From: Streptomyces sp. RKAG290
Lineage (GTDB): Bacteria; Actinomycetota; Actinomycetes; Streptomycetales; Streptomycetaceae
Assembly (NCBI RefSeq): GCF_023701695.1
Contig: NZ_JAJOZC010000001.1
Location: 4,277,894 to 4,341,893 of the forward strand
Length of the DNA: 64,000 bases
Direction of reading: 5' to 3'
Position 1 is the first letter of the stretch; the number at the start of each line of letters is the position of its first letter. Below the pieces are notes generated by a model. It was not told the DNA's origin and did no database searches. It saw only the letters and a list, made by a program, of their open reading frames with translations. Shown one piece after another: positions 29,142 through 45,222 of this stretch. A program made the translations under genes and the position numbers.

Positions 29142-30382
29142 GTGAGCAATTCGCAGGGCAGCCACCGTGCTGCACGTGGCCGGGGGCGCACGGCGGCCGT
29201 GACTCCGCGCGGCCCCGTCACCGCCGTCGTCCCGGGCCCGTCGCCCGTACCGCTGCACGAGGAGCTGACGCTCGGCGCGTGGCCGCTGCACGCGCCGACC
29301 GCCGTCGACCTGGTGGCGGGCGGCCCCGCCCCGGTCACCGGCCCCCGCACGGGCCCCTGGCAGGCCCCCACGGTGCCGGCGTTCACCGTCCCGCCCGTCG
29401 CCGCGACGCCCACCCCACCATGCCGGCGTTCACCGTGCCCACCCCCACCGTGCCGGCCTTCACCGTGCCCGCTCCCGGCGGCCGGGCGGGTGCGCGGCGG
29501 GCCGCCCGGCGGCGCAGGGTGCCTGTCCGCTCCGAGAACCTGCGCCGCCTGGTCCCGCAGGCCCTCGTCGTCGCGTTCCTGGCGGGCGGCACCACCGCGT
29601 TCGTCGCCGACGACAAGGCGGTGACCCTGGACATCGACGGGGAGCCCCGCACCCTGCACACCTTCGCGGACGACGTCGGCGAACTCCTCGCCGACCAGGG
29701 CATCGCCGTCGGCGGACCCGGGACGGTGTTCCCGGCGCCCGGCAGCGAGCTCGGCGACGGCGACGAGATCACCGTCCGCAGCCGGCGCCCGGTGACGCTC
29801 ACCCTCGACGGGGTGCGGCGCCGCGTCTGGACCTCCGAGCACACGGTCGGCGACGCCCTGCGCCGGATCGGGGTGCGCGCCGAGGGGGCCTACCTCTCCG
29901 TCTCCCGGGCCGCGCCGATCGGCCGCACCGGACTGGCGCTGGACGTACGCACGGAGCGCACCGTGACCGTGATGGCCGACGGCCGCGAACACACCGTCCG
30001 CACCAACGCCGCCACCGTCCGCGAGGCCGTCGCACGGGCCGGCGTCGCCCTGCGCGGCGAGGACACCACATCCGTGGCCCCCGACAGCTTCCCGCGCGAC
30101 GGCCAGACCGTCTCGGTGCTGAGGATCACCACCACCCGGGAGGTGCGCGAGGAGCCACTGGCGTACGCCGTCGAACGGACCGGGGACAGTTCGCTGGCCG
30201 TCGGCACGGAGGTCGTCGAACGGGAGGGGCGGGACGGCTCGCGCCGCGTCCTGTACACCCTGCGGACCGTCAACGGCGTCCGGCAGAAGCCCAGGGAGGT
30301 GGACGCGGAGCTGGTGCGGGAGCCCGTCAGCCGGGTCGTGCGGGCCGGCACCGGGCCCGGTCCGGCGCCCAAGCCGGGCTGA
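29142..30382 (+). CDS. Surface protein with three DUF348 domains and a G5 domain, no lytic domain (frameshift)
   Basis: An RpfB-type layout without the transglycosylase. After correction (about 413 residues) there is a Pro/Thr-rich N-terminal region with repeated TVPAFTVP, a basic stretch, then a signal-anchor VPQALVVAFLAGGTTAFV. Three DUF348 repeats start near 160, 217 and 274 (VTLDIDGEPRTLHTFADDV and the like), then a G5 domain to about 400. The gene ends there, only 80 bases before rsmA, so the Rpf catalytic domain is absent. The N-terminal part is out of frame by one base at the CCCC run 29413-29416. GTG 29142 has GGAG four bases ahead. Inferred cell-wall binding. Confidence 0.8.
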
Positions 30383-30462
30383 GCGCTGTCCCGCGGTCCC
30401 CGCGGACCGTGCGGGCAGCGGGGGCGAGCTACGGCGCCGCCCGGCGGCCGTAGGCTTGACGG

Positions 30463-31365
30463 GTGAGCACCACAGAGCCCGACGCCCTCCTGGGCCCCGC
30501 AGACATCCGCGAGCTGGCCGCGACGCTGGGCGTACGCCCCACGAAGCAGCGCGGCCAGAACTTCGTCATCGACGCCAACACGGTCCGGCGGATCGTGCGG
30601 ACCGCGGAAGTCCGCCCGGACGACGTGGTGGTCGAGATCGGCCCCGGCCTGGGTTCGCTGACCCTGGCGCTGCTGGAGGCGGCCGACCGGGTCGTCGCCG
30701 TCGAGATCGACGACGTGCTGGCGGGCGCCCTGCCGGCCACCGTCGCCGCCCGGATGCCGGAGCGCGCGGACCGGTTCACCCTCGTCCACTCGGACGCGAT
30801 GCTGGTACGGGAACTGCCCGGCCCGCCGCCCACCGCACTGGTCGCGAACCTCCCGTACAACGTCGCCGTGCCCGTACTGCTCACCATGCTCGACCGCTTC
30901 CCGAGCATCGAGCGGACCCTGGTCATGGTCCAGGCCGAGGTCGCCGACCGGCTGGCCGCCGCCCCGGGCAACAAGGTCTACGGAGTGCCGTCGGTCAAGG
31001 CCAACTGGTACACGGACGTCAAGCGCGCCGGCTCCATCGGGCGCAAGGTCTTCTGGCCCGCCCCGAACGTCGACTCGGGACTGGTGTCCCTGGTGCGCCG
31101 GGCCGAGCCGGTCGCCACCACCGCGAGCAAGGCCGAGGTCTTCGCGGTCGTCGACGCCGCCTTCGCCCAGCGCCGCAAGACGCTGCGGGCGGCCCTGTCC
31201 GGCTGGGCGGGCTCCGCGCCCGCCGCCGAGGCCGCCCTGGTCGCGGCCGGCGTCTCGCCGCAGGCCCGCGGCGAGGCACTGACGGTCGAGGAGTTCGCCG
31301 CCATCGCCGAGAACAAGCCCGCGGCGCCCGCCGCAGCGGACCAGGCCGCCGGGAGCGCCGAGTGA
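30463..31365 (+). CDS. rsmA: 16S rRNA dimethyladenosine transferase RsmA/KsgA
   Basis: A 300-residue SAM-dependent enzyme that dimethylates A1518 and A1519 of 16S rRNA. Seen: [13 protein letters not shown] motif [13 protein letters not shown], acidic motif VEIDDVLAG, motif [16 protein letters not shown], and the C-terminal substrate domain with VPSVKANWY and [15 protein letters not shown] 30463. The stop overlaps the ispE start by GTGA, an arrangement conserved in actinobacteria. Confidence 0.95.
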
Positions 31366-32255
31366 GTGTCACCGTCCGGGTACCGGCCAAGGTCAACGTC
31401 CAGCTCGCCGTCGGCGCCCCGCGCCCCGACGGCTTCCACGACCTGGCCAACGTCTTCCTCGCCGTGGGCCTGTACGACGAGATCACCGTCACCCCGGCCG
31501 ACGGGCTGCGCGTCACCTGCGCGGGGCCCGACGCAGCCCAGGTCCCCCTGGACGTCACCAACCTCGCCGCCCGCGCCGCGATCGCCCTCGCCGAGCGGCA
31601 CGGCATCGCACCCCGTGTGCACATCCACATCGACAAGGACATCCCGGTCGCGGGCGGGATGGCGGGCGGCAGCGCCGACGGGGCAGGCGCCCTGCTGGCC
31701 TGCGACGCGCTCTGGTCCACCGGCGCCACCCGCGAGGAACTGCTCGCCATCTGTGCCGAGCTGGGCAGCGACGTCCCGTTCAGCCTGGTCGGCGGCGCGG
31801 CCCTCGGAGTGGGCCGCGGCGAGCAGCTGACGCCCGTCGAGGTCGGCGGTACCTTCCACTGGGTCTTCGCGGTCGCGGACGGCGGCCTCTCCACCCCGGC
31901 CGTCTACCGCGAGTTCGACCGGCTCACCGCGGACACGCAGGTGCCCGCGCCCGTCGCGTCCGACGCGCTCCTGGCGGCGCTGCGCGCCGGTGACACCACG
32001 GCACTCGCGGGCGCCCTGAGCAACGGCCTGCAGCCCGCGGCGCTGTCACTGCGCCCCTCGCTGGCCGACACCCTCGCGGCGGGCACCACCGCGGGCGCGG
32101 CCGCCGCGCTGGTCTCGGGCTCCGGCCCGACCACCGCGTTCCTGACCGAGGACGAGGCGTCGGCCCGCAAGGTCGCCGACGCGCTCATCGCCTCGGGAAC
32201 GTGCCGCAACGCCCGGATCGCGACATCCCCCGCGCCGGGCGCCACGCTCCGCTGA
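31362..32255 (+). CDS. ispE: 4-diphosphocytidyl-2-C-methyl-D-erythritol kinase
   Basis: A 297-residue GHMP kinase that phosphorylates the 2-hydroxyl of CDP-ME in the MEP isoprenoid pathway. Seen: the N-terminal [22 protein letters not shown], the ATP loop [19 protein letters not shown] and the C-terminal [16 protein letters not shown] 31362 overlaps the rsmA stop. The position usually Asn in KINL is Asn here as well. The product feeds isoprenoids, including undecaprenyl phosphate used by the cell-wall and Pmt enzymes. Confidence 0.95.
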
Positions 32256-32283
32256 CCGTGGCGCCGCGGACGTGCGGCCAGGC

Positions 32284-32925
32284 TCAGCCGAGCCGCACGC
32301 TCCGCTTCGCCAGCTCGTAGGCGGGGAGCATGCTCCGGTGCTCCTGGGTGTCCAGCCCGCCCAGGTGCACCACGACCGGGCCTTCGGGGGTGGCTACGGC
32401 GAAGGCGTGTGCCTCGCGCGACTCGTCCATGACCTTGCTGTGGACGGTGTAGCCCGCCTCGACCACGGACAGCTTCCCGACCGTGCTCTGCCTGTACGTG
32501 ATCTTCGAGGCGTTCTCGTCGGCCTTCACGAAGCCCTCCAGCGCCTGGCGCGGGGAGCCGCCCTTGCCGTCGCCCTGCCAGACCCGCAGGAATCCGATGT
32601 GCCCGGCCGGCTTCGCGTCGATCTCACAGGCCATCGAGACCGGACCCTGCGTGGCGAGAGCGGCGAACTCCGGGTCGGTCTCGGGGGCGACGGCCTTCGC
32701 CTTCCAGCCCTTCGCCACATCGAAGGTGACCCGCAGCTCGCACCCGGAACCGGCGCCCCCGACCGTGCCGCCCCTGGCCGCCGTCTTCCCGGCGGCCCGC
32801 TTCGTCGCCCCGCCGTCCGGGCCGGGGCCCGCCTTCGCACCGTCGCCCGACTCCGACGAGCAGCCCGTCAGCGCCCCCGCGACCAGCAGTACGGGCACCA
32901 GCCCGCGAACCGTACGACCCACCAT
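32284..32925 (-). CDS. Lipoprotein of unknown function
   Basis: A 213-residue lipoprotein. The signal peptide MVGRTVRGLVPVLLVAGALTGC has a good lipobox (LTGC) and is followed by a Ser/Gly/Ala/Lys linker. The mature domain (about 70-213) starts GCELRVTFDVAKGWKAKAV and contains a second Cys (MACEI), possibly disulfide-bonded to the first. ATG 32925 is chosen over longer starts because it gives the clean signal peptide. It is convergent with ispE and divergent from the ABC-F gene. The lipoprotein family is common in Streptomyces, without known function. Confidence 0.85.
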   Translation of the reverse strand: MVGRTVRGLVPVLLVAGALTGCSSESGDGAKAGPGPDGGATKRAAGKTAARGGTVGGAGSGCELRVTFDVAKGWKAKAVAPETDPEFAALATQGPVSMACEIDAKPAGHIGFLRVWQGDGKGGSPRQALEGFVKADENASKITYRQSTVGKLSVVEAGYTVHSKVMDESREAHAFAVATPEGPVVVHLGGLDTQEHRSMLPAYELAKRSVRLG

Positions 32926-33118
32926 GAAGTCCCCACCCCGGCGCAATTCAGGGCCCGCCCCCCGGGCCTTGATCATTTCGGGCAAGGTACCGCACGTACG
33001 GGGCCCCGCGGGAGCCGGTTACGGGCCCGCCCCGCACGGGTGAGCGAGCGCTCGTGCGGAGCTCCGCACCGTGGCGACTACGCTGAAGGTCAGAGTTTTC
33101 CTTCGAGCTGGAGCGTTC

Positions 33119-34936
33119 GTGGCCGTCAACCTCGTCAATGTCGAGCAGGTCAGCAAGGTGTACGGCACCCGTGCGCTGCTCGACGGTGTGTCCCTCGGTG
33201 TGTCCGAGGGGGACCGGATCGGTGTCGTCGGTCGTAACGGAGACGGCAAGACGACCCTCATCCGGATGCTCGCCAAGCTGGAGGACGCGGACACCGGCCG
33301 CGTCACCCACAACGGCGGGCTGCGGCTGGGCGTCCTGACCCAGCACGATTCGCTGGATCCCAAGGCCACGGTCCGCCACGAGGTCATCGGTGACCTCGCC
33401 GACCACGAGTGGGCGGGCAGCGCCAAGATCCGCGATGTGCTGACCGGACTCTTCGGCGGTCTCGACCTGGCGGGCTTCGAACACGGCCTGGACACCGTCA
33501 TCGCCCCGCTCTCCGGCGGGGAACGCCGCCGGATCGCGCTCGCGAAGCTGCTCATCGCCGAACAGGACCTGATCGTCCTCGACGAGCCGACCAACCACCT
33601 TGACGTCGAGGGCATCTCCTGGCTGGCCGGCCATCTGCGGGCCCGCCGCTCGGCGCTGGTCTGCGTCACCCACGACCGGTGGTTCCTCGACCAGGTCTGC
33701 ACGCGCATGTGGGACGTCCAGCGCGGTGCGGTCCACGAGTACGAGGGCGGCTACAGCGACTACGTCTTCGCCCGTGCCGAACGGGAGCGGATCGCCGCCA
33801 CCGAGGAGGGCAAGCGCCAGAACCTGATGCGCAAGGAGCTGGCCTGGCTGCGGCGCGGCGCCCCCGCCCGTACGTCCAAGCCGCGCTACCGCATCGAGGC
33901 GGCCAACGAACTGATCGCCGATGTGCCGCCGCCGCGCGACACCAGCGCGCTGATGAAGTTCGCCAACGCCCGGCTCGGCAAGACGGTCTTCGACCTGGAG
34001 GACGTGACCGTCCAGGCAGGGCCCAAGACGCTGCTCACGCACCTCACCTGGCAGCTCGGTCCCGGTGACCGGGTCGGCCTGGTCGGGGTCAACGGCGCGG
34101 GCAAGACCTCGCTGCTGCGGGCGCTGGGCGAGGCCGCCCGCACCCAGGGCGAGGAGCAGCCCGCCGAGGGGAAGATCATCGTCGGCAAGACGGTGAAGCT
34201 CGCCTACCTCTCCCAGGAGGTCGCCGAGCTCAACCCGAACCTGCGGGTGCTGGAAGCGGTCCAGCAGGTGCGTGACCGGGTCGACCTCGGCAAGGGCCGG
34301 GAGATGACCGCGGGGCAGCTCTGCGAGCAGTTCGGCTTCACGAAGGAGAAGCAGTGGACCCCGGTCGGCGATCTGTCGGGCGGTGAGCGGCGCAGGCTGC
34401 AGATCCTGCGGCTGCTGATGGACGAGCCCAACGTCCTCTTCCTCGACGAGCCCACCAACGACCTCGACATCGAGACCCTGACCCAGCTGGAGGACCTGCT
34501 CGACGGCTGGCCCGGGTCGATGATCGTGATCTCCCACGACCGGTTCTTCATCGAGCGGACCACGGACCGCGTGATGGCGCTGCTCGGTGACCGCTCGCTG
34601 CGGATGCTGCCGCGCGGCATCGACGAGTACCTGGAACGCAGGCTGCGGCTCGCCGGGACGGTCACGCCCGCCTCGGTCCCCGCGTCGGCCCCGCAGGCCG
34701 CCGCGTCGGCACCGGCCGTCTCGCCGCAGGCCGCACGTGCGGCGAAGAAGGAGCTGCAGAAGGTCGAGCGGCAGCTCGACAAGATGTCGACCCGCGAGAC
34801 GACGCTGCACGCCCAGATCGCCGACAACGCCACGGACTTCGAGAAGGTGGCGAAGCTGGACGCCGAACTGCGTGAACTGGTGGCGGAGCGCGATGTGCTG
34901 GAGATGCGCTGGCTGGAACTGGCCGAGGACTCCTGA
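33119..34936 (+). CDS. ABC-F family ATPase (Uup/EttA-type translation factor)
   Basis: A 605-residue soluble protein with two ABC cassettes and no membrane domain. Walker A: GRNGDGKTT near 39 and GVNGAGKTS near 324. Signatures: LSGGERRRIALA and LSGGERRRLQIL. Walker B: LIVLDEPTNHLD and VLFLDEPTNDLD. The interdomain linker RMRKELAWLRRGAPARTSKPR is the P-site tRNA-interaction motif. A C-terminal coiled coil (about 530-605) follows an Ala/Pro hinge, as in Uup. ABC-F proteins act on the ribosome E site, some giving antibiotic resistance. GTG 33119 has GGAG six bases ahead. Divergent from the lipoprotein gene. Confidence 0.93.
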   Translation: MAVNLVNVEQVSKVYGTRALLDGVSLGVSEGDRIGVVGRNGDGKTTLIRMLAKLEDADTGRVTHNGGLRLGVLTQHDSLDPKATVRHEVIGDLADHEWAGSAKIRDVLTGLFGGLDLAGFEHGLDTVIAPLSGGERRRIALAKLLIAEQDLIVLDEPTNHLDVEGISWLAGHLRARRSALVCVTHDRWFLDQVCTRMWDVQRGAVHEYEGGYSDYVFARAERERIAATEEGKRQNLMRKELAWLRRGAPARTSKPRYRIEAANELIADVPPPRDTSALMKFANARLGKTVFDLEDVTVQAGPKTLLTHLTWQLGPGDRVGLVGVNGAGKTSLLRALGEAARTQGEEQPAEGKIIVGKTVKLAYLSQEVAELNPNLRVLEAVQQVRDRVDLGKGREMTAGQLCEQFGFTKEKQWTPVGDLSGGERRRLQILRLLMDEPNVLFLDEPTNDLDIETLTQLEDLLDGWPGSMIVISHDRFFIERTTDRVMALLGDRSLRMLPRGIDEYLERRLRLAGTVTPASVPASAPQAAASAPAVSPQAARAAKKELQKVERQLDKMSTRETTLHAQIADNATDFEKVAKLDAELRELVAERDVLEMRWLELAEDS

Positions 34937-34972
34937 CCGCTGAGGGGCGGCACCGCACAACTGGGGTGACTG

Positions 34973-34997
34973 GCCCCGCCGGTGTGGCCGGTGGGGC
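34973..34997 (+). terminator. Terminator after the ABC-F gene
   Basis: A 10-bp stem with one G-U pair (34973-34982 with 34988-34997), 37 bases after the ABC-F stop; a TTGTGG stretch follows. Confidence 0.6.
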
Positions 34998-35009
34998 TTG
35001 TGGGGCGGA

Positions 35010-35020
35010 TGGTAGAAAGA
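35010..35020 (+). promoter_or_regulatory. Shared upstream motif TGGTASAAAGA, copy 1
   Basis: TGGTAGAAAGA, 69 bases upstream of the first PQQ-propeller gene. An almost identical TGGTACAAAGA precedes the second gene at 36955. It may be an extended -10 element of the same sigma factor. Confidence 0.4.
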
Positions 35021-35088
35021 GATCTTGCCCGGCGCGGTAGCCGGACCGTGCCGCACCGCAGGTGACAAAGGAACAGGGGGACGGGCCG

Positions 35089-36867
35089 ATGAGCCAGCCG
35101 CCCGGACAGCAGCCGCCGCAGGGTGAGTTCGGAGCCCCTTACGGCCCGCCGCCCGACACGCCCCCCACCCCGGGCCAGGGCACGGCGCAGCCGTCCGGCC
35201 CGTACGGCGCCGGTCCCCAGCAGCCCGGCCCCTACGGACAGCCCACGCAGCCCGGCCCGTACGGCGTGCCCGGTCGGTCCGGCCCGTACGGACCGCAGGC
35301 GCCCCAGGGTTACGGCTACCCGCCGCAGCCCGGCCCGTACGGGCAGGCGCCCCAGGGGTACGGCTACCCGCCACCGCAGCCGCCGCAGTCCGGCGGGCCC
35401 CGGGGCGGCGGACGGTTCCGCGGCAGGACCGGCGTGCTCGTCGGTGCCGTGCTCGCGGTGGCGCTCCTGGCCGGTGGCGGTATCTGGTACGTCTCCGGCG
35501 GGGACGACAACGGCGGCAGGCCCACGAACTCCGGTCACGGCTCGGGACACCCGAAGGTCTCGCCCTCGCCGACCGAGGGCGGCGGCAAGGACGACGACAA
35601 GGGCGACGACACGATCAGCCCCCGCGCGGAGGCCGACGCCATCAACGCCGCGCTCGAGCCCGGCGAGGCGAAGGCCCTCTGGATCCAGAAGGGCGGCGTC
35701 GATCTGCCGGAGCTCGGCGACGACGTGTACGGGCCGTGGATCGTCGGCGACACCATCGTCAAGGCCATGTTCCACACCGTCTCGGGTTACTCCGTCACCG
35801 ACGGTGAGCTCAGGTGGAGCCTGCGGCTGCCCACCAACGCGTGTGCGGCGCCCTCCCGGCCCACCGCCGACGGCAAGATCGTCCTGGGCATCAAGCACAC
35901 CACCGCGGGCGACGCGGAATGCAGAGACCTGCAGATGATCGACCTCAGGACGGGCAAGGCCGGCTGGCGCAAGTCGTACGTCCGCCAGGGCGCCTGGGAC
36001 GGGCTGTCCGACCTCGCGATGTCGATCAACGGCGACACCGTGACCGTGGGCCGCACCAGCAGGACCGACGCCTTCCGGGTCAGCGACGGCAAGGTGCTGT
36101 TCGGGGAACTGCCCGGCAACTGCCAGCCGTTCGGGTTCGCCAGCGGCGACGTGGCGATCGCCGCCGCGAGCTGCCAGACCGCCGCGGACGACCACAAGGA
36201 ACAGCAGGTACAGAAGATCGACCCCGCCACCGGAAAGCGGCTGTGGACGTACAAGGTGAAGAAGGGCTGGCAGGTCGCGCAGATCTACTCCGCCGACCCC
36301 GTGGTGATCTCGCTCAAGCAGCCGGACAAGTGGGGCATCCTCGTGCTCAACGCCGACGGCACCTACCGCACCCAGCTCTCCGGCGGACCGGGCAACTACG
36401 CGCCCAAGTGCGACAAGGACATGATCGTCCAGGGGGCCGACCTCGACAACTGCGTCGGGGTGGCCGCCGATGCGAACACGTTCTACATGGCGACCGGGCC
36501 CGTCGACATCAAGGCCGGTACCGGCAACAGGGTCGCCGCGTTCGACCTGACCACCGGCAAGCACAAGTGGACGGTCGCCTCCCCGGCCGACCAGCCCTTC
36601 GTGCCGATGCGGACCGAGGGCGGCAAGCTGCTGATGTACGTCGAGGCGGCCAAGAACAAGGGCGGCGGCATCGCCACCCTCCCGCCCACCGGCGGCACCC
36701 CGCAGATGCTGCTGCGCCACCCGGCGTCGGGCGCCGCCACCGAACGCGGCTTCTACGACCCGCGCATCGCCTACGTGGGCGGACGCTCCTTCCTCATGCA
36801 GACGAGGATGAGCGGCAGCAACGACGAGGAGATCGAGGCGCGATCCATGGTGGCATTCGGCAACTGA
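35089..36867 (+). CDS. PQQ-propeller membrane protein with Pro/Gly-rich tail, paralogue 1
   Basis: A 592-residue bitopic protein. Residues 1-110 are disordered and built of Pro/Gln/Gly/Tyr repeats (QPGPYGQP, APQGYGYPP). One TM helix (TGVLVGAVLAVALLAGGG) is at about 113-132. The rest is extracellular: a charged linker, then a PQQ/WD-like propeller with blade motifs YSVTDGELRW, DLRTGKAGW, DPATGKRLW and DLTTGKHKW and paired Cys (NACAAP, AECRDL). There are no catalytic residues; such domains usually scaffold or bind ligands. ATG 35089 starts the first of three tandem paralogues. Function unknown. Confidence 0.88.
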   Translation: MSQPPGQQPPQGEFGAPYGPPPDTPPTPGQGTAQPSGPYGAGPQQPGPYGQPTQPGPYGVPGRSGPYGPQAPQGYGYPPQPGPYGQAPQGYGYPPPQPPQSGGPRGGGRFRGRTGVLVGAVLAVALLAGGGIWYVSGGDDNGGRPTNSGHGSGHPKVSPSPTEGGGKDDDKGDDTISPRAEADAINAALEPGEAKALWIQKGGVDLPELGDDVYGPWIVGDTIVKAMFHTVSGYSVTDGELRWSLRLPTNACAAPSRPTADGKIVLGIKHTTAGDAECRDLQMIDLRTGKAGWRKSYVRQGAWDGLSDLAMSINGDTVTVGRTSRTDAFRVSDGKVLFGELPGNCQPFGFASGDVAIAAASCQTAADDHKEQQVQKIDPATGKRLWTYKVKKGWQVAQIYSADPVVISLKQPDKWGILVLNADGTYRTQLSGGPGNYAPKCDKDMIVQGADLDNCVGVAADANTFYMATGPVDIKAGTGNRVAAFDLTTGKHKWTVASPADQPFVPMRTEGGKLLMYVEAAKNKGGGIATLPPTGGTPQMLLRHPASGAATERGFYDPRIAYVGGRSFLMQTRMSGSNDEEIEARSMVAFGN

Positions 36868-36954
36868 CGGCGGCTTAGGCGTAACGGCGGCATCACGGGC
36901 CGGTTCTCCCTTGGGAACAGGGGTGGACCGAACCGCAGCCCGCCCTGTGGCGGG

Positions 36955-36965
36955 TGGTACAAAGA
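36955..36965 (+). promoter_or_regulatory. Shared upstream motif TGGTASAAAGA, copy 2
   Basis: TGGTACAAAGA, 152 bases before the second PQQ-propeller gene, matching 10 of 11 bases of the copy at 35010. Confidence 0.4.
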
Positions 36966-37117
36966 AGCCCCGCTCGACTGTCGTGACACTGCGGAATCCA
37001 TGCCCGATTCGCTCCATTTCGCCGGGGATCAGGGGGTCTTGTTCGACCCTCGGAGCCCCGGCGGAATCGCGGGGGAGTCCGGAACGGGCACAGGACCGCA
37101 CGAAGGGGGACGCGCTG

Positions 37118-38989
37118 ATGACCCAGCCGCCCAGCCAGCAACCGCCGCAGGGAGGCTTCGGCGCTCCACAGGAGCCGCCGCAGGGGGTTCCTCAGCCGCC
37201 CAAGGGCCCGCCGCAGACCCCGCCGCCCGCGCAGCCGCCCCAGCCGCCGGCCGCCCCGCCGGGCCCGCCGTCCGCGCAGCCGGGCTACGGCTACCCGCAG
37301 CAGCCCGGTCCCTACGGGCAGCCGCAGCAGCAGGGTCCGTACGGCCAGCAGCAGCCGGGCCCCTACGCCCAGCAGCCCGGCCCCTACGGCCAGCCGCAGC
37401 AGCCCGGTCCCTACGGCCAGCCGCAGCAGCCCGGTCCCTACGGCCAGCCGCAGCAGCCCGGTTACGGATACCCGCAGCAGCAGTACCCCGGCGCACCGGT
37501 CCCGCCAGGACCGACGGGCCCCGGCGGCGGCAACCCCTTCAAGGGCAAGCCCCTGATGATCATCGCGGCCGCGGTCGCCGCGCTGCTGGTCATCGGCGGC
37601 GGTGTCTACCTGGCCACGAGCGGCGGCGACGACGGCAAGAAGCCCGTCGCGAAGGAGAGCAGCGGCGGCCCGCAGCCGTCCGTCTCGCCCTCCGTCGACG
37701 AGGGTGACGGCAACGGCACCGGCCGCGAAGGCGGCGACGACCTGAACGGCGGCCGCAAGCCCGGCGAGGCGAAGGTCCTCTGGCTCCAGAAGAACGACGT
37801 CGACCTGCCGCGCAACGGCGCCGACGTGTACGGCCCCTGGGTCGTGGGCGACACCCTCGTCAAGGGGATGTACCGCACCTTCGCCGGCTACGGGGTGGCC
37901 GACGGCAAGCAGAAGTGGAAGCTGAAGCTGGACACGGACATCTGCTCCGCGCCCTCGGAGGTCACCAGCGACGGCAAGATCGTCATCGGGGTGAAGAACG
38001 GCACCACCGACAAGGCCGACTGCTCGGAACTCCAGCTGCTCGACCTCAACACCGGTAAGACCGGCTGGAAGAAGGAGATCAAGAGCAGCGGTCTCTTCGA
38101 CCTGATGTCGGACATCTCCCTCGCCATCAGCGGCGACACCGTGACGGTCGGCCGCACCGGTGCCTCCAACGCCTTCCGGGTGAGCGACGGCAAGGAGCTG
38201 TTCGGCAAGCGGGACGGGATCTGCCAGCCGTTCGCCTTCGCGGGCGGACCCAAGCTGATCGCCGCCACCAGCTGCCGCGTCCAGGACGTCGAGAACCCGC
38301 AGCACGAGATCGAGGAGATCGACCCGGTCACCGGGAAGCCCAAGTGGACGTACAAGCCCGCCCGTGGCTGGGAGGTCGACAACGTCTACTCGGTGAGCCC
38401 GCTCATCGTGTCGCTGACCAAGGGCAGCAGCTCCGAGGACAAGCAGTGGAGCATCCTGGCGCTCAAGGAGAACGGCACGCTGCGCTCCCAGATCGTCAGT
38501 GACAAGGGCGACAAGTTCCCCGCCGGCTGCGGTAGCGCCTTCGCCATCTTCGGCAAGTCCGTCGACGGCTGCGACGGTGTCACGGCCGACGCCAACACGC
38601 TCTACATGCGGACGCAGGACGACACCAGCGGCACCTCCCGCACCAACAAGGTCGTCGCGTTCAACCTGAACACCGGCAAGACGAAGTGGAAGGCGAACTC
38701 GCCGGCCGAGCACACGATGAAGCCGCTGCGGATGGAGGGCGGCAACGTGCTGCTCTACGTGGACGCGGGCTACGACAACGGCGGCGGGATCGCCACCCTC
38801 GCGCCGACCGGCGGCACTCCGCAGATGGTGCTGCAGCACCAGGACTCGACCTCGGAGATCGAGAGCTCGTTCTACGACGAGAAGATCCTCTACGCGGGCG
38901 GCCGTTCATTCATCGTGAGCGGGCGGGTCAGCGCGACCAACGACAAGGAAGAGCTGGAGACGAAGACCATGATGGCCTTCGGCAAGTGA
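37118..38989 (+). CDS. PQQ-propeller membrane protein with Pro/Gln-rich tail, paralogue 2
   Basis: A 623-residue paralogue of the preceding gene, clearly the closest pair: the block after the linker, GEAKVLWLQKNDVDLP against GEAKALWIQKGGVDLP, is nearly the same and the propeller aligns end to end, closing with MMAFGK. The N-terminal 140 residues contain runs of QPGPYGQPQ. The TM helix (LMIIAAAVAALLVIGGGVYL) is at about 145-164. Blade motifs include DLNTGKTGW, DPVTGKPKW and NLNTGKTKW, with Cys in DICSAP, ADCSEL, GICQPF and TSCRV. ATG 37118 has AAGGGGG ahead. Probably arose by tandem duplication. Confidence 0.88.
   Translation: MTQPPSQQPPQGGFGAPQEPPQGVPQPPKGPPQTPPPAQPPQPPAAPPGPPSAQPGYGYPQQPGPYGQPQQQGPYGQQQPGPYAQQPGPYGQPQQPGPYGQPQQPGPYGQPQQPGYGYPQQQYPGAPVPPGPTGPGGGNPFKGKPLMIIAAAVAALLVIGGGVYLATSGGDDGKKPVAKESSGGPQPSVSPSVDEGDGNGTGREGGDDLNGGRKPGEAKVLWLQKNDVDLPRNGADVYGPWVVGDTLVKGMYRTFAGYGVADGKQKWKLKLDTDICSAPSEVTSDGKIVIGVKNGTTDKADCSELQLLDLNTGKTGWKKEIKSSGLFDLMSDISLAISGDTVTVGRTGASNAFRVSDGKELFGKRDGICQPFAFAGGPKLIAATSCRVQDVENPQHEIEEIDPVTGKPKWTYKPARGWEVDNVYSVSPLIVSLTKGSSSEDKQWSILALKENGTLRSQIVSDKGDKFPAGCGSAFAIFGKSVDGCDGVTADANTLYMRTQDDTSGTSRTNKVVAFNLNTGKTKWKANSPAEHTMKPLRMEGGNVLLYVDAGYDNGGGIATLAPTGGTPQMVLQHQDSTSEIESSFYDEKILYAGGRSFIVSGRVSATNDKEELETKTMMAFGK
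37303..37465 (+). repeat. In-frame QPGPYGQPQ repeats
   Basis: The N-terminal tail of paralogue 2 contains about six tandem copies of a 9-residue unit, QPGPYGQPQ with variants. The last three copies are almost identical in DNA (27-base period), indicating recent slippage or expansion. Confidence 0.75.
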
Positions 38990-39013
38990 CGGCTCGCACC
39001 TGAAGGCACCCGG

Positions 39014-39049
39014 CCGGCCGCGGACGACACCAGACCCGCCCGCGGCCGG
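39014..39049 (+). terminator. Intergenic hairpin between paralogues 2 and 3
   Basis: CCGGCCGCGG (39014-39023) pairs perfectly with CCGCGGCCGG (39040-39049). It lies 24 bases after the stop of paralogue 2 and could terminate or attenuate. Confidence 0.5.
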
Positions 39050-39094
39050 CGCCGGCCCCCGACTTACTCACTTTCTCCCGAGGTACGCAACGCC

Positions 39095-41002
39095 ATGACG
39101 CAGCCGCCCCAGCCGCCGCCCAACGATCCGCCCCAGGGCGGGTTCGGCGCACCGCAGGACCCGCCGCCCGGTGGGTTCGGCGCCCCCACGCCGCCGCCCG
39201 CCGATCCCTTCGGCAAGCCGCCGGCCACCCCGCCGACCCCGCCGACCCCGCCCCAGCAGCAGCCCGGCTACGGCTACCCGCAGACGCCGCCGCAGGGCCA
39301 GCCGCCGCAGCCCGGCTACGGCTTCCCGCAAGGTCAGCCGCCGCAGGGTCAGCCGCAGCAGCCGGGCTACGGGTTCCCGCAGGGCCAGCCGCAGCAGGGT
39401 TACGGGTTCCCGCAGGGTCAGCCGCCCCAGCAGCAGGGCTACGGCTATCCGCAGCAGGGCCAGCCGCCCCAGCAGGGCTACGGCTACCCCACCGCTCCGA
39501 TGCAGCAGCCCTACCAGCCGCCGCAGCAGGGCGGGAACGGCCCGAAGAAGTTCTCCACCCAGGCGCAGATCATCGTTGCCGCGGTGGTCGCCGTGGCGCT
39601 GATCGTCGGCGGCGGTCTCTGGTTCGCCTCCAGCGGTGGCGACGACAAGAAGGACGAGGCGTCCAGCTCCGCCGGCACCACCGGTGAGGGCAAGGGGAGC
39701 GGCGGCAACGGCCCCGGCGGCGGCGGCAAGGAGAAGGCCCCGGCGAACACCAAGGCCGAGGTCGCCTTCCAGCTGCCGCAGCCCAAGGTCACCGACGTCA
39801 CGAGCGTCGACGGCTCCTGGCTGACCGACAAGGCGTACGTGAAGACGGGCGTCAACGAGATCGTCGGCTACGACCAGGCCAAGGGCACCAAGCTCTGGTC
39901 GATCCCGCTGCCCGGTCAGCTGTGTGCCGCCTCCCGGCACATGAGCAAGGACTTCAAGACGGCCGTCGCCTTCGAAGAGGGCAAGCGGACCGCGACGAAG
40001 AAGTACCAGGCGTGCAACCACGTGGGCGCCCTCGACCTGAACACCGGCAAGCTGATGTGGAACAAGTCGGTGACCGCCGCCTCCGGTGGCGACGCCCCCG
40101 TCAGGTTCGCGGAGGTTACCCTCAGCGGCACCACGGTCGCCGCGGCGGGCACCGAGGGCGGCGCCGCCTTCGACCTGAACACCGGCGCCGAGCGCTGGAA
40201 GCCGAAGGTCAGCACCGACGGCTGCTACGACACGGGCTACGGCGGCGGTGAGGCACTCGCCGTCGTCCGCAAGTGCGGCACGTACGACGACCCGCAGCTC
40301 ACCATCCAGGCGCTGAACCCGACCACGGGCGCCCCGATCTCCTCGTACAAGATGCCGCCCGGTGTCGACTACGCGAGCATCGTCTCCACCAAGCCCCTGG
40401 TCGTCGCGGCCGACGTCGGCGACACCGCCGGTGACGGCAGCGGGATCTCCGACTTCTTCTCGATCGACGCGGCCAGCGGCAAGCTGCTCGTCAGGATTCC
40501 GGCCGACGCGGAGAAGTACGCGGCGAGCTGCCGGTCCACCGAGGTCGAGAGCTGCCAGCAGCTCGCGGTCGGCAACAACCGCATCTACCTGCCCACCGAG
40601 GAACACGAGGGCAACAGCGACGACTACGGCAACACCAACGAGATCGTCTCCTTCGACCTGACCACCGGCAAGCCGACCAGTGACCGGGCCGACGCGGGCG
40701 AGCGCTACACGATGTTCCCGCTGCGCATGGACGGCGGCAACATCATCGCGTACAAGGAGCCCCCGTACGACAAGGGCGGCCAGATCGTCTCCATCGACGG
40801 CAGCACCTTCAAGCAGACCGTGCTGCTGGAGAACCCGAGCGACGAGTCCGTCCGGGACGCGGAGACCAGCTTCTCCGCGGAGTACGCCGAATTCCGTTAC
40901 AGCAGCGGGCGGTTGTACATCTCCGAGACGATGCTCAGCAAGCCGAGTTCCAGCTCGCTGGACGACAAGGAATACCTCGTCGTCGCATTCGGCGCCAACT
41001 GA
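39095..41002 (+). CDS. PQQ-propeller membrane protein with Pro/Gln-rich tail, paralogue 3
   Basis: A 635-residue, more divergent third paralogue. Its Pro/Gln/Gly-rich cytoplasmic tail uses the unit [11 protein letters not shown] rather than GPYGQP. The TM helix ([19 protein letters not shown]) is at about 158-176, followed by a Gly/Lys-rich linker. The propeller has [29 protein letters not shown] and DLTTGKPTS blades and Cys pairs (GQLCAA, YQACNHV, DGCYDT, RKCGTY). The start is ATG 39095, only 105 bases after paralogue 2 with no promoter seen, so it may be read from the same transcript. It ends before a strong terminator. Confidence 0.87.
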
Positions 41003-41023
41003 TCAGACATCAGTAATGCCCCT

Positions 41024-41066
41024 GGCCCTGCCGGTCGATCATTCGACCGGCAGGGCCGGTCGTTTT
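41024..41066 (+). terminator. Strong Rho-independent terminator
   Basis: A 15-bp perfect stem (41024-41038 with 41043-41057), a TCAT tetraloop and TTTT after a short spacer. It ends the three-gene PQQ-propeller block. Confidence 0.85.
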
Positions 41067-41212
41067 CTGTCCGTCAAGCAGCCCTGAAACGCGCATGATT
41101 CGGCATTCCGGTGGTCTTCTGTCAGCTAAGGTGCCCGCTGCGTCGAACAAGCGTGTAACTTGCCGGGTCTAGAGGGCCGGGGGGCCTGGCGGCGGTGCTA
41201 CGGGGGTGCTCG

Positions 41213-41908
41213 ATGGGCGTGCGGCTCATGGTGGTCGATGACCACCGACTGCTCGCCGAGGCGCTCGCCTCGGCGCTGAAACTGCGTGGTCACCGGGTGC
41301 TCGCCGCAGCCGCGCCCACCACAGGAGCGGCCGAGCTGGTGGTCAGCCGGGCCCCGGAGGTCTGCCTGTTCGGCACGGCGGCGCCCGCCGAACCCGGCGC
41401 CTTCGACCCGATCGTGCGGATCAGGCGCGAGCGCCCGCAGATCGCGGTGGTGGTGCTCGGCCCGGTGCCGAGTCCGCTGGGGATCGCGGCAGCCTTCGCG
41501 GCCGGCGCCGCGGGCTATGTCCGTCACGACGAACGCATCGAGGGCGTCGAGCGGGCGATCACCAAGGCGCGGGCCGGTGAGGCGGCGGTCGCGCCGCAGC
41601 TGCTCCAGTGCGCCTTCGCCGAGCTGCTCAACCCGGCCGTCCAGCCGGACGACGAGGGGCAGCGGCTGCTGCAGATGCTCACGCCGCGCGAGGTCGAGGT
41701 CCTGGTCCGGGTCGCCGAGGGCGAAGGTACCCGGCTGATCGCCGCCGGCATGCGGATCGCGCCGAGCACCGCGCGCACCCACGTGCAGCGCGTGCTGATG
41801 AAGCTCGGCGTCGGGTCCCGGCTGGAGGCGGCGGCGCTCGCCGCCCGCACCGGCCTGCTGGACCGGGCGGCCGTGGGGACGCGGCAGGGGCCGGACACCG
41901 TCGGGTGA
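41213..41908 (+). CDS. Orphan LuxR-type response regulator with degenerate receiver
   Basis: A 231-residue NarL/LuxR-type regulator. The receiver fold is kept (LMVVDDHRLLAEAL at the start, AAFAAGAAGYV near the end), but the phospho-acceptor Asp is Gly54 (EVCLFGTAAP), the switch Thr is Gly (VVVLGPVP) and the conserved Lys is His (YVRHDE), so phosphorylation is not expected. The LuxR HTH is intact (LTPREVEVLVRVAEG, IAPSTARTHVQRVLMKLGV). ATG 41213 has GGGGG ahead. No kinase gene is adjacent. Such atypical regulators in Streptomyces (BldM and WhiI-like) act in development, sometimes by ligand binding. Confidence 0.88.
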   Translation: MGVRLMVVDDHRLLAEALASALKLRGHRVLAAAAPTTGAAELVVSRAPEVCLFGTAAPAEPGAFDPIVRIRRERPQIAVVVLGPVPSPLGIAAAFAAGAAGYVRHDERIEGVERAITKARAGEAAVAPQLLQCAFAELLNPAVQPDDEGQRLLQMLTPREVEVLVRVAEGEGTRLIAAGMRIAPSTARTHVQRVLMKLGVGSRLEAAALAARTGLLDRAAVGTRQGPDTVG

Positions 41909-41947
41909 CGGCTGTCCGGCCCCTGCCGGTGGTGGTGCGGTGACGCG

Positions 41948-42244
41948 TCAGCTGTCCGGCGTGTCCGTGGTGTCGGGGACGCCGGCCGGCGGCTGGGCCG
42001 GGCGCAGCTTCAGCCAGACCAGGAAGAACAGCCCCAGGGCCAGCATGGCCAGCCCGGTCCACAGGTTTATGTGGACGCCCTGGGCCTTCTTCAGGTCCGC
42101 TTCCGACGGGCTTATCCCGGCGATGGTGACGATGACTCCGTAGACCACGAAGAGACCGCCGATGATCCGCCGGATGTCGAAGAGGCGGGCCGCCGTCGCG
42201 GACTTCTGCTCCAGATCGGAGACTTCCTTGTGCAGGTCAGGCAT
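41948..42244 (-). CDS. Small two-TM membrane protein linked to the symporter
   Basis: A 98-residue protein with a charged N-terminal segment (MPDLHKEVSDLEQK), two TM helices (GLFVVYGVIVTIAGI and TGLAMLALGLFFLVWL) and a short Pro-rich tail. It follows the Na+/solute symporter by 15 bases on the same strand. Small partners of this kind accompany several sodium/solute symporter genes; their role is unknown. Confidence 0.75.
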   Translation of the reverse strand: MPDLHKEVSDLEQKSATAARLFDIRRIIGGLFVVYGVIVTIAGISPSEADLKKAQGVHINLWTGLAMLALGLFFLVWLKLRPAQPPAGVPDTTDTPDS

Positions 42245-42259
42245 GGTGAGTTACTCCGA

Positions 42260-43930
42260 TCAGAACGAGTAGGGGATGTAGCAGGCGGCGGCGAGCACGA
42301 TCGCGCCCCAACCCAGCAGGGCCGGCTTGCGGTACCAGGCGCTGTCGCCCTCCTCGGGCACCTCGGCGTCGCCCGGCGACTCGGTTCCGTAGACCAGACC
42401 GGCCAGTTCGGCCTCGGGCTTGGGAGCCGTGAAGAGCGTGACGGCGACCATCACGACCGCACCGGCGACGAATCCGACGATCGCGGAGACGAAGTTGGCG
42501 CCCTGGTCGCTCGGGATGTCGATGATGCCCTGCTTGTAGATGACGAAGTAGTTGACCATCGCGGCCGTGGTACCGGCGACCAGGCCCCAGACGCCGGACT
42601 TCATCGAGGCGCGCTTCCAGAACATGCCGATGATGAAGACGACGAACATCGGGACGTTGAAGAAGGAGAACAGCGTCTGGAGGTAGCTCATGATGTTGGA
42701 GAAGCTGGCGGCGATGAACGCCGTGCCGATGGAGGCCACCACACCGATCACCGTGATCCCCCGGCCGAAGCCCAGGTAGTACGCGTCCGGCTGGTCCTTC
42801 TTCACGTACCGCGCCCAGATGTCCGTGGTGAACACGGTGTTGAACGAGGAGACGTTGGCCGCCATACCTGCCATGAACGCGGCCAGCAGACCGGTCACCG
42901 CGATGCCCAGGACACCGTTGGGCAACAGCTCCTGCATCAGCAGCGGGATGGCGTCGTTGTAGGTGAGGTCCGAGCCGGGGGTGCCGATCTTCGGCACGAG
43001 GACGGCGGCGACCAGACCCGGGATCATCACCAGGAAGACGATGAAGATCTTCGGGAACGCGGCGATCAGCGGGGTGCGCTTGGCCGCCGAGAGGTTCTTC
43101 GCGGACAGGGCGCGCTGCACCTCGGCGAAGTTGGTCGTCCAGTACCCGAACGAGAGCACGAAGCCCAGGCCGAGGATGATCGTCAGCCAGTTGGCACCGA
43201 GCGGGTTGGCGTCACCGATGCCCGTGCCGCCCCAGGCGGACATGAAGTCCTGGCCGTGGCTCTTCTCCAGTGAGCCGGACAGTCCGTCCCAGCCGCCGAC
43301 GCGCTTGAGGCCCAGCAGTGTCAGTGGGATCAGCGCGGCGAGGATGACGAAGAACTGCAGCACCTCGTTGTAGATCGCGGAGGAGAGCCCGCCGATGGTG
43401 ATGTAGACGAGGACGAAGAGACCCGCGACCACGATCGCGACCCACTGCGGCCAGCCGAGGAGCGCCTCCACGACGATCGACAGGGCGTACAGGTTGACGC
43501 CCGCGATCAGGATCGCCGCGAAGGCGAAGAGTATGGAGCTCAGCAGGTGCGCGGACTTGTCGAAGCGCTGGAGCAGGAACTCCGGTACGGAGCGCACCTT
43601 CGACCGGTAGTAGAAGGGCATCATCACGAGGCCCAGGAAGACCATGGCCGGGATGGCGCCGATCCAGTACCAGTGCACGACCGCGACGCCGTACTGCGCG
43701 CCGGTCGCCGCCATGCCGAGGATCTCGGTGGCGCCGAGGTTCGCCGCGACGAAGGCCAGACCGGTCACCCATGCGGGCAGTGACCGTCCGGAGAGGAAGA
43801 AGTCGAGACTCGTCTTCACGCTTGCCCGAGCGGCGAAGCCGATGCCGAGAACGACGACGAAGTAGATCGCCAGAATCGTGTAGTCGAGCCCGTTCGTGGG
43901 GAGCCGGAGCCCTGCAGCCAGATATTGCAT
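42260..43930 (-). CDS. Sodium:solute symporter (SSS family), probably sugar uptake
   Basis: A 556-residue transporter with 13-14 TM helices and the SSS/LeuT-fold signatures: DFFLSGRSLPAWVTGLAF, GMAATGAQYG, the GGLSSAIYNEVLQFF segment and ATGLLAAFMAGMAANVSSFN, the Na2-site helix, in which VSSFN carries the coordinating Ser residues. It resembles vSGLT-type sugar symporters. ATG 43930 is divergent from galT (248-base spacer), which suggests galactose as substrate; that is inference from context. Downstream is the two-TM partner gene. Confidence 0.9.
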   Translation of the reverse strand: MQYLAAGLRLPTNGLDYTILAIYFVVVLGIGFAARASVKTSLDFFLSGRSLPAWVTGLAFVAANLGATEILGMAATGAQYGVAVVHWYWIGAIPAMVFLGLVMMPFYYRSKVRSVPEFLLQRFDKSAHLLSSILFAFAAILIAGVNLYALSIVVEALLGWPQWVAIVVAGLFVLVYITIGGLSSAIYNEVLQFFVILAALIPLTLLGLKRVGGWDGLSGSLEKSHGQDFMSAWGGTGIGDANPLGANWLTIILGLGFVLSFGYWTTNFAEVQRALSAKNLSAAKRTPLIAAFPKIFIVFLVMIPGLVAAVLVPKIGTPGSDLTYNDAIPLLMQELLPNGVLGIAVTGLLAAFMAGMAANVSSFNTVFTTDIWARYVKKDQPDAYYLGFGRGITVIGVVASIGTAFIAASFSNIMSYLQTLFSFFNVPMFVVFIIGMFWKRASMKSGVWGLVAGTTAAMVNYFVIYKQGIIDIPSDQGANFVSAIVGFVAGAVVMVAVTLFTAPKPEAELAGLVYGTESPGDAEVPEEGDSAWYRKPALLGWGAIVLAAACYIPYSF

Positions 43931-43984
43931 GTGGGGGTACTCGCTTCGTTGCGCGAACTGAACCCGAAGGAAACTACGCTCTTG

Positions 43985-44001
43985 TGTTCAGAAAATGAAC
44001 A
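43985..44001. promoter_or_regulatory. Inverted repeat between symporter and galT
   Basis: TGTTCA-GAAAA-TGAACA, a perfect 6-bp inverted repeat in AT-rich sequence, 55 bases before the symporter start and 178 before galT. It is a candidate regulator site for sugar uptake. Confidence 0.5.
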
Positions 44002-44133
44002 GTTCCGATGAGGTTCTTTGTTGGATTGTGATCGTATTGCCGGAATCCCGGGCCCTAACCCTGGCGAGATCCCGCTCACATGTGCGCTCGCGCACTACCT
44101 CATGTCGTAGGCGTCCACTCATTGACGCCCCTG

Positions 44134-44164
44134 TTGACTTGTGGTTCATTGTGTTGGGTTATGT
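44134..44164 (+). promoter_or_regulatory. Likely gal operon promoter
   Basis: TTGACT (44134-44139) and TTATGT (44159-44164) with a 19-base spacer, just before the GGAGGAG of galT. The spacer holds repeated TTGTG elements. The long spacer makes this tentative. Confidence 0.45.
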
Positions 44165-44178
44165 TTGGGAGGAGTCTG

Positions 44179-45222
44179 GTGAAGAAGACGGTTACGACGC
44201 TCGCCGACGGCCGGGAGCTGCTCTACTACGACAGCCGCGACGACGTGGTCCGCGATGCCGTCGACCGGCGGCCGCTCGACCCGGTGGCGACGTCGTCCGA
44301 GATCCGCCGGGACCCCCTGCTCGGGGACAGCATCGCCATCGCCTCGCACCGCCAGGGCCGCACCTACCACCCGCCGGCCGACGAGTGTCCGCTCTGCCCC
44401 TCGCGGGAGGGACGGCTCAGCGAGATCCCGGACGACAGCTACGACGTCGCCGTCTTCGAGAACCGCTTCCCCTCGCTCGCCGGCGACGCCGGCCGCTGCG
44501 AGGTCGTCTGCTTCACCTCCGACCACGACGCGTCGTTCGCCAACCTCACCGAGGAGCAGGCCGGCCTGGTCCTGGAGGCCTGGACCGACCGCACCGCCGA
44601 GCTCGCCGAGCTTCCGCAGGTCAAGCAGGTGTTCTGCTTCGAGAACCGGGGCGCCGAGATAGGCGTCACCCTCGGCCACCCGCACGGCCAGATCTACGGC
44701 TACCCCTTCGTGACCCCGCGCACCGAGCTGATGTTCCGCTCGATGGCGGCCCACCGCGCGGAGACCGGCGGCAACCTCTTCGACGACGTGGTGGCCCGTG
44801 AGGAGGCGGACGGCTCGCGGGTCGTCCTCGCCGGGGAGCACTGGATCGCCTTCGTGCCGTACGCGGCGCACTGGCCGTACGAGGTCCATCTGCACCCGCG
44901 CCGCCGCGTCCCCGACCTGCGGGAACTCGACGACGCCGCGCGCATGGAATTCCCACAGGTCTATCTGGAACTCTTGAGGCGATTCGACCGGATCTTCGGC
45001 CCCGGCGAGCCGCAGACCCCGTACATCTCCGCCTGGCACCAGGCACCGTTCGGGGTTCCCGGACGGGAGGACTTCGGGCTCCACCTCGAGCTCTTCACCA
45101 TCCGACGCACCCCCGGCAAGCTGAAGTTCCTCGCGGGTTCCGAATCCGGCATGAACGTGTTCATCAACGACGTGCCGCCGGAGACCGCGGCCCAGCGACT
45201 GCGAGAGGTAGCGAGCGAGTGA
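44179..45222 (+). CDS. galT: Galactose-1-phosphate uridylyltransferase
   Basis: A 347-residue HIT-superfamily enzyme of the Leloir pathway that swaps UMP between UDP-glucose and galactose-1-phosphate. Seen: zinc site CPLCPS, uridine site [10 protein letters not shown], the active-site HPH in [17 protein letters not shown] whose second His is uridylylated, and the C-terminal His motif ([15 protein letters not shown]). GTG 44179 follows GGAGGAG; the upstream frame has no support. Its stop overlaps galE by GTGA. Confidence 0.95.

Follow-up and report, generated by a model that had tools for sequence, protein, structure and literature searches.

Three Tandem Bitopic Propeller Proteins of Streptomyces sp. 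RKAG290 and the Conserved Peptide at the Start of Their Variable Tails

Genes A, B, and C Encode Single-Pass Propeller Proteins

In a stretch of 64,000 nucleotides from Streptomyces sp. RKAG290 (contig NZ_JAJOZC010000001.1, positions 4,277,894 to 4,341,893 of the forward strand; hereafter referred to as the window), three genes for membrane-anchored propeller proteins, designated as A, B, and C, follow each other on the + strand. Each of them encodes a signal-anchored, single-pass protein with an N-terminal tail that carries a conserved start peptide and with a six-cysteine propeller domain of the PQQ_2 type outside the membrane. The start peptide, the cysteine frame, and a block of control elements upstream of B are held, while the tail repeats and the copy number vary, which is the pattern of transmembrane adaptors. 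Our favored interpretation, whose chances we put only slightly short of even, is that the three proteins act as transmembrane adaptors, docking through a peptide on the inside and binding through the propeller on the outside.

The source genome is of the Streptomyces type and comprises 8.08 Mb in 26 contigs. Gene A (35089-36867, + strand) codes for 592 amino acids and, judged by a tree of the family, is a younger duplicate of B; gene B (37118-38989, + strand) codes for 623 amino acids from its ATG, and gene C (39095-41002, + strand), whose product has 635 amino acids, presents a separate old lineage. They are preceded on the same strand by the gene of an ABC-F ATPase and followed by that of an orphan regulator of the NarL/LuxR type. 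The first-pass annotation had reported three tandem bitopic paralogues of 592-635 residues, each with a low-complexity tail and an extracellular propeller, and in this respect the open reading frames (ORFs) agree with it. It had assigned them to 33119-41066; the propeller genes do lie within this span, at 35089-41002, but its start lies in the ABC-F gene and its end includes a terminator.

All three proteins begin with a tail rich in proline, glutamine, glycine, and tyrosine (P/Q/G/Y), continue with one hydrophobic segment, and end with the outer propeller domain. The tails of A, B, and C measure 114, 145, and 158 residues with a P/Q/G/Y content of 78, 85, and 80%, respectively. Arg/Lys precede the hydrophobic segment and Asp follows it, a pattern that points to a cytoplasmic location of all three tails. 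The PQQ_2 family (PF13360) matches A with 48.8, B with 46.5, and C with 53.5 bits, in each case above the Pfam gathering cut-off of 27.6 bits.

A Conserved Tail Start Is Followed by Variable Repeats

For comparison, 43 loci were used together with the window, whereby 20 loci were hand-chosen from searches of the genus and the order and 23 came from a related-locus search that favors near relatives of B. The labels A, B, and C were given to the genes of these loci according to the best tblastn match. In the window, the start-of-tail peptide reads GEFGAP in A (35122-35139), GGFGAP in B (37151-37168), and occurs as two copies of GGFGAP in C (39137-39187), all on the + strand and with positions counted by hand from the translation. 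Of 110 tails, 91 contain GFGAP among their first 35 residues, compared to an expectation of 0.068 from per-tail shuffles; one further protein, L052_C1, was dropped from this count because its tail start is out of frame. The latter looks like either a frameshift or an assembly error in gene C of that locus. The form xGFGAP was found in 26 of 28 A-labeled, 40 of 44 B-labeled, and 34 of 39 C-labeled tails. Mean pairwise identity amounts to 0.71-0.77 over tail residues 1-24, to 0.45-0.61 over the rest of the tail, and to 0.56-0.66 over the last 440 residues, whereby the Pro/Gly-rich composition inflates these values. Within the genome, DNA coding for QG[GE]FGAP occurs at exactly three sites, namely in A, B, and C, and at none in a reversed control. 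Other sites coding for GGFGAP gave 10 matches in the nine loci examined, and in no case did the match open a propeller protein. Sequence comparison thus identifies the short start peptide as the conserved part of the tail, the long repeats not being conserved.

The repeats themselves differ among the genes, as had been noticed before, with GPYGQP-type units in A and another type in C. The tail of B contains a 27-base tandem array (37285-37462, + strand; 6.9 copies with 81% matches), in which two adjacent units are identical at 27 of 27 bases, as is expected of a young expansion; the recent expansion postulated in the first-pass annotation is borne out by this. Tails of similar composition occur elsewhere in the genome as well: five of six other loci matching the tail of C carry the GYGYPQ/PYGQ type on proteins that are not propellers. 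At the locus L028, a kinase ORF shares its strand, but not its reading frame, with a stretch made up of a GYGYPQ tail and a transmembrane segment, and the two look like one frameshifted kinase gene. A plasmid-borne relative (L134) retains the start-of-tail peptide, and five dispersed chromosomal relatives (L136-L140) have another start in common, PW..P...PVP.NPYA. A second plasmid copy (L135) is situated near NlpC/P60 and replication-relaxation genes.

The Ectodomains Are Six-Cysteine Propellers

An alignment of 46 ectodomains of the propeller family (alignment A1) formed the basis for the analysis of the outer domain. PQQ_2 matches all 46 members at E <= 0.001, and six Cys columns are invariant in all of them, which is more than the paired cysteines that had been claimed at first. 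From the transmembrane segment onward, exactly six Cys residues were counted in 107 and seven in 4 of the 111 proteins. In the modeled ectodomain of B (37736-38986, + strand), the invariant Cys are at residues 70, 96, 163, 180, 265, and 279.

AlphaFold2 models of the ectodomains consist nearly entirely of strands and were obtained with a predicted local distance difference test (pLDDT) of 89.0 and a predicted template-modelling score (pTM) of 0.88 for B, and with a pLDDT of 87.5 and a pTM of 0.88 for C. The top match of the B model in the Protein Data Bank (PDB) according to Foldseek is a BamB (E 1e-11, template-modelling scores 0.49 and 0.60). Alignment to BamB with VIA-align 2 gave a Z of 20.6 with a root-mean-square deviation (rmsd) of 4.0 over 312 residues for B, and a Z of 21.3 with an rmsd of 4.4 over 314 residues for C; BamB chains overall align over 307-316 residues (Z about 20-21, rmsd 4.0-4.9), which is almost the whole model. 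Going by these models, the ectodomains of B and C are predicted propellers that among bacterial ones are most like BamB, and the number of strands together with the structural matches can be read as eight blades. Many propellers tie within 1-2 Z and no single structural match stands clear of the others; as many propeller types match similarly well, the fold alone gives no function. By sequence, the B ectodomain alone retrieved no solved structure at E <= 1, and the A1 profile retrieved BamB, quinoproteins, and a PQQ-like chain (9m2c) over part of the domain and with E-values no better than 8e-7. A loop specific for C, D.GD..GDGS.[IVL], lies at about 40405-40460 of the ectodomain region, is present in 31 of 39 C proteins, and recalls a metal-binding loop.

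The annotation "PQQ-binding-like" might suggest that the proteins are dehydrogenases dependent on pyrroloquinoline quinone (PQQ). In such dehydrogenases the cofactor site contains a ring-like vicinal disulfide (CC). PF01011 does come near its cut-off for A (26.4 versus 26.7 bits) and matches 35 of 46 members of A1 at E <= 0.001. However, A stays under that cut-off, B reaches 17.6 of 26.7 bits, and C is not listed; the dehydrogenase model TIGR03075 gives 13.9 of 480 bits for B, and not a single vicinal CC was found in the last 440 residues of the 111 proteins. A search for PQQ synthesis with TIGR02111 (PqqC) gave no match in the genome, but none in the control genomes either. Since all 111 proteins have six or more Cys after the tail and none of them has a CC, a cofactor enzyme is unlikely on sequence grounds; in view of the dehydrogenase-model scores as well, we rejected the PQQ enzyme reading and consider it very improbable.

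A Conserved Putative Control Region Precedes Gene B

Three elements were found upstream of B on the + strand, namely a direct-repeat-like element GTAACG-N4-CATCAC with an 11-base period (36881-36896), a core, TCCCTTGGGAACAG (36907-36920), and the element GTGGTACAAAG (36954-36964). Among 41 B-labeled genes, the direct repeat is located upstream of 34, the core TCC[CG]TTGGG[AC]ACAG upstream of 38, and GTG[GA]TA[CG]AAAG upstream of 40. Two of the three B-labeled genes without the core are A-type by the tree, and the third is the second copy in L059, the first copy of which has the core. The core was not found upstream of any of 24 A genes, 35 C genes that have a gene before them, or 3 C-only genes, nor in 18 ABC-F loci of genomes chosen for no or weak propeller match, whereas the third element also precedes 13 of the 24 A genes and two of the three C-only genes. 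The collection of upstream regions was made without those of C in L052, A in L058, L075, L076, L092, and the window, and B in L059 and L060; A of the window was restored for the counts of conserved elements upstream of B.

The core has one exact site genome-wide, and with up to three mismatches four sites compared to two in the control; a regulon defined by this element was therefore rejected. As a single sequence the element folds better than its shuffles (z -2.8). Nevertheless, a reading as RNA hairpin was discarded because conservation is highest across what would be the loop, and because the arms, inspected by eye in 39 sequences, are not consistently complementary. We take the element as a putative DNA site. 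The 11-base period of the repeat is of the OmpR-family type, and GTAACG-N5-ATCACG upstream of B, compared by eye with the MtrA consensus [GT]T[GA]ACC-N5-GT[GT]ACN (given in an excerpt of PMC5650626), resembles it imperfectly, with the same spacing and agreement at 5/6 + 3/5 positions. In Actinoplanes, a PQQ-binding-like propeller gene is among the strongest MtrA peaks (excerpt of PMC10714768).

B and C Form an Old Pair and A Was Added Later

With the B ectodomain as query, matches at E <= 1e-5 were obtained for 76 Streptomyces genomes out of an even draw of 81 and, at the level of the order, for 175 of 197 genomes, those outside the genus being weak (E 1e-5 to 1e-9). At the level of the class, the A1 profile at E <= 1e-15 matched 23 of 246 genomes, three of which are outside the genus; in two of these three (L141 and L142), the last 420 residues contain four Cys and the protein lacks a GFGAP start. 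A second B-like gene directly upstream of B was found in at least nine of the 81 genus genomes, own genome included.

In the 38 loci where both flanking genes are visible (six further loci are cut by contig ends and stand outside this count), three carry one gene, which is C alone, 13 carry two, 18 including the window carry three, and four carry four. A tree of 111 ectodomains, calculated by a quick method with support from the Shimodaira-Hasegawa-like approximate likelihood ratio test (SH-aLRT) only, groups C as one clade (support 100) and places A together with two B-labeled rows (L057_B1 and L081_B1) in a clade (support 99) that is nested in B. According to this tree, B and C are an old pair and A is a later duplicate of B; a separate second duplication of B may have taken place in L059. 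Fragments of A have been left in L082 (6606-7180) and L056 (9500-9999): in the L082 relic the start MTQPPARPPQEGFKAPYDPPPG ends at a stop and the C-terminal end of A resumes in another frame, and L078, a near-identical relative of L056, has an intact A.

Among 19 genomes chosen for no or weak propeller match, 18 have the ABC-F gene. It is followed within 1 kb by the regulator in 13 of the 18, and no propeller gene was found in these. The remaining loci comprise three in single-contig genomes (L097, L101, and L103), which have about 7-8 kb of other DNA between ABC-F and the regulator, one that is cut off (L098), and one from another genus (L112). Since ABC-F and the regulator stay in place in 13 genomes without propeller genes, these neighbors do not depend on them. 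The system is accessory, as it is duplicated, decaying, and absent in some species. In view of the copy numbers and the tree, the conserved triplication put forward in the first-pass annotation had to be given up, and with it the idea of a dedicated three-part envelope system. Still, what was found is not a single-copy gene in an unconserved neighborhood, as ABC-F precedes and the orphan regulator follows the propeller genes.

The Proteins Resemble Known Propeller Proteins of Different Kinds

BamB is a lipoprotein of the Gram-negative outer membrane and not an enzyme. Like BamB (TIGR03300; PDB 9a3d, 8bvq, and others), A, B, and C have a propeller over almost the whole ectodomain, but they differ in being anchored by a transmembrane segment and in their six conserved Cys. 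With 21.2, 32.4, and 20.8 bits for A, B, and C at a cut-off of 285, they are not BamB proper, and no lipoprotein anchor was seen in their translations, which instead show the tail of 114-158 residues and the internal hydrophobic segment. Kinases of the AfsK type combine a cytoplasmic part, a transmembrane segment, and an outer PQQ-like propeller; A, B, and C differ from them by the lack of a Ser/Thr kinase domain. The Rv3212 family of mycobacteria and corynebacteria (NF050114) is likewise detected through weak PQQ-type similarity, but with 15.9 bits for A, 20.2 bits for B, and C not listed at a cut-off of 150, the three proteins stand outside of it. No NF050114 member was found in this genome, whereas the control, Corynebacterium glutamicum, gave a match. 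Rv3212 itself is on the lists of proteins recovered in pull-downs of Rv0954 and FtsB (excerpts of PMC8093794 and PMC6872210).

The PQQ-repeat protein WP_048584697.1 from S. viridochromogenes has one transmembrane domain, a propeller, and a disordered N-terminal stretch of about 150 residues that contains PYGQPQAPYGQPQ repeats, and by this likeness is probably a member of the same family; in the excerpt of its source it figures as a gluten-peptide look-alike without functional work (PMC8430993). A, B, and C belong to an already known kind of uncharacterized protein, and what is new is the conserved start-of-tail peptide.

The Adaptor Reading and Its Alternatives

If A, B, and C act as transmembrane adaptors, the start peptide would dock on one fixed cytoplasmic partner and the length-variable P/Q/G/Y stretch would serve as a flexible spacer. 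Outside, the six Cys could form three disulfides, and the propeller might bind envelope proteins or peptides as BamB does, with neither PQQ nor catalysis involved. B and C would probably share one transcript, with the conserved element upstream of B marking its promoter. As the process served, the likeliest would be extracytoplasmic protein handling, in the sense of secretion quality control, or wall assembly, although we regard this assignment as unlikely to be right in itself. It could also be, with a somewhat better but still low probability, that the start peptide, with M[TS]QPP at its beginning and [DE]PP at its end, is a new short linear docking motif. A cytoplasmic protein of Streptomyces would be dedicated to reading it and would employ the propellers as exchangeable transmembrane arms, whereby the different start of the dispersed relatives may point to several codes; the degenerate regulator and the single-site element preceding B would form a control circuit of their own. 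Such a docking code would be a direct handle on the linkage of cytoplasm and envelope via bitopic propellers in Streptomyces and would allow the part of the widespread Pro/Gln/Gly/Tyr tails that has a function to be told apart from repetitive filler.

The only experimental line found in the open-access literature on the presumed S. coelicolor counterparts of the genus-wide genes B and C is an entry in a target table of CutR, whose regulon (CutRS) is one of secretion stress. SCO3149 is ksgA (PMC7157823) and SCO3144 an orphan NarL regulator (PMC9739842), and from gene order and count between these two, SCO3146 and SCO3145 should be the counterparts of B and C. SCO3146, listed as "Secreted protein", is among 16 promoters bound by CutR of both S. 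coelicolor and S. venezuelae, with 3.72-fold and 2.09-fold signals, respectively, in chromatin immunoprecipitation sequencing (ChIP-seq) with glucose (excerpt of PMC10433416).

Several observations weigh against our interpretation. Eleven of the 111 tails lack a strict xGFGAP, and although near forms such as GFGPP, GGFGSP, and GSFGAP are among these exceptions, L060_B1 has nothing that resembles the start peptide; the identity of the tail start profits from the composition mentioned above. Eukaryotic WD40 proteins score alongside BamB with a Z of 22.0 for B and 22.7 for C, and the adaptor partners on either side of the membrane are purely putative. Concerning CutR, SCO3146 is equated with B through gene order alone, its protein ratio in the mutant is just 1.5 (excerpt of PMC10433416), and according to the abstract of a 2025 paper S. 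coelicolor and S. venezuelae have only htrA3 and htrB as targets in common (PMC12802291). The CutR site TAWATAAA was found neither in the window nor in the upstream regions collected, in a scan without allowed variants such as CATATAAA; a site of this form upstream of B was therefore rejected.

The pace of evolution bears on two of the alternatives. The ratio of nonsynonymous to synonymous substitutions (dN/dS), estimated with simple NG86 counting in at most 14 closely related pairs, has a median of 0.62 for A, where the L084-L089 pairs, with dS up to 0.5, may set non-orthologous copies against each other, 0.36 for B, and 0.35 for C, compared to 0.09 for ABC-F, 0.09 for the regulator, 0.08 for a symporter, and 0.71 for the neighboring PF18966 lipoprotein. 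By these counts the ectodomains are under loose purifying selection that is no looser than that of the exported lipoprotein.

It might be that the proteins are envelope sensors whose propeller binds a small ligand, such as a sugar, a wall fragment, or an antibiotic, and whose tail passes on the signal, perhaps to a kinase. The propeller and single transmembrane segment of AfsK, a weak match of the NCBIfam AfsK model in two of 46 A1 members, and ectodomains that evolve fast relative to ABC-F and the regulator, as if ligands differed, would fit this idea. Against it stand the family scan, which revealed no signalling domain in A, B, or C and no kinase family at E <= 0.1, the poor signal path that a tail variable in length and repeats would offer, and column conservation (columns only, the surface not being mapped; L059_B1, L081_B1, and L057_B1 left out of the B rows), which shows no conserved polar cluster of the ligand-site type; we hold a sensor function to be rather unlikely. 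Slightly more doubtful still is the possibility of a drifting genus-specific family, in which the tail would be an ordinary Streptomyces membrane-protein tail and the start peptide merely its best-kept part. Tails of similar composition on other proteins of the genome, the absence from five of the 81 genus genomes, and copy numbers of 0-4 agree with drift, but in the loci examined the start peptide is restricted to the propeller family and kept in all three lineages and the plasmid relative, and B-carrying loci from across the genus sample retain the element upstream of B. The fast ectodomains would also suit surface proteins under diversifying pressure from phage attachment or strain conflict, with their function being secondary, as would the birth and death of A, the relics in L056 and L082, the clean absences, and the plasmid relatives. 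This explanation appears still less probable to us, as all three median dN/dS values are below 1, the lipoprotein next door is faster, so that the pace may be normal for exported proteins, and PADLOC and PHROGs gave no match for A, B, or C at E <= 0.01, by which defence or phage families were rejected.

Neighboring Genes and Minor Features

The ABC-F ATPase gene (33122-34936, + strand) flanks A and is outside the propeller family. A strong terminator-like hairpin with a 17-pair stem was found by the terminator scan on the + strand 3' of C (41022-41059); the same scan revealed none on this strand after ABC-F, A, or B, and no RNA family reached its gathering threshold in 30000-45000. The orphan response regulator (41213-41908, + strand), SCO3144 by gene order, is conserved genus-wide. 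Its acidic DD pair is kept, but at what we take to be the position of the phospho-acceptor Asp a Gly is present in 39 of 39 rows, and the presumed Thr and Lys positions are altered too; by its sequence it is a degenerate receiver. Finally, the PF18966 lipoprotein gene (32284-32985, - strand) is located between ispE and ABC-F and is present in only part of the compared loci.

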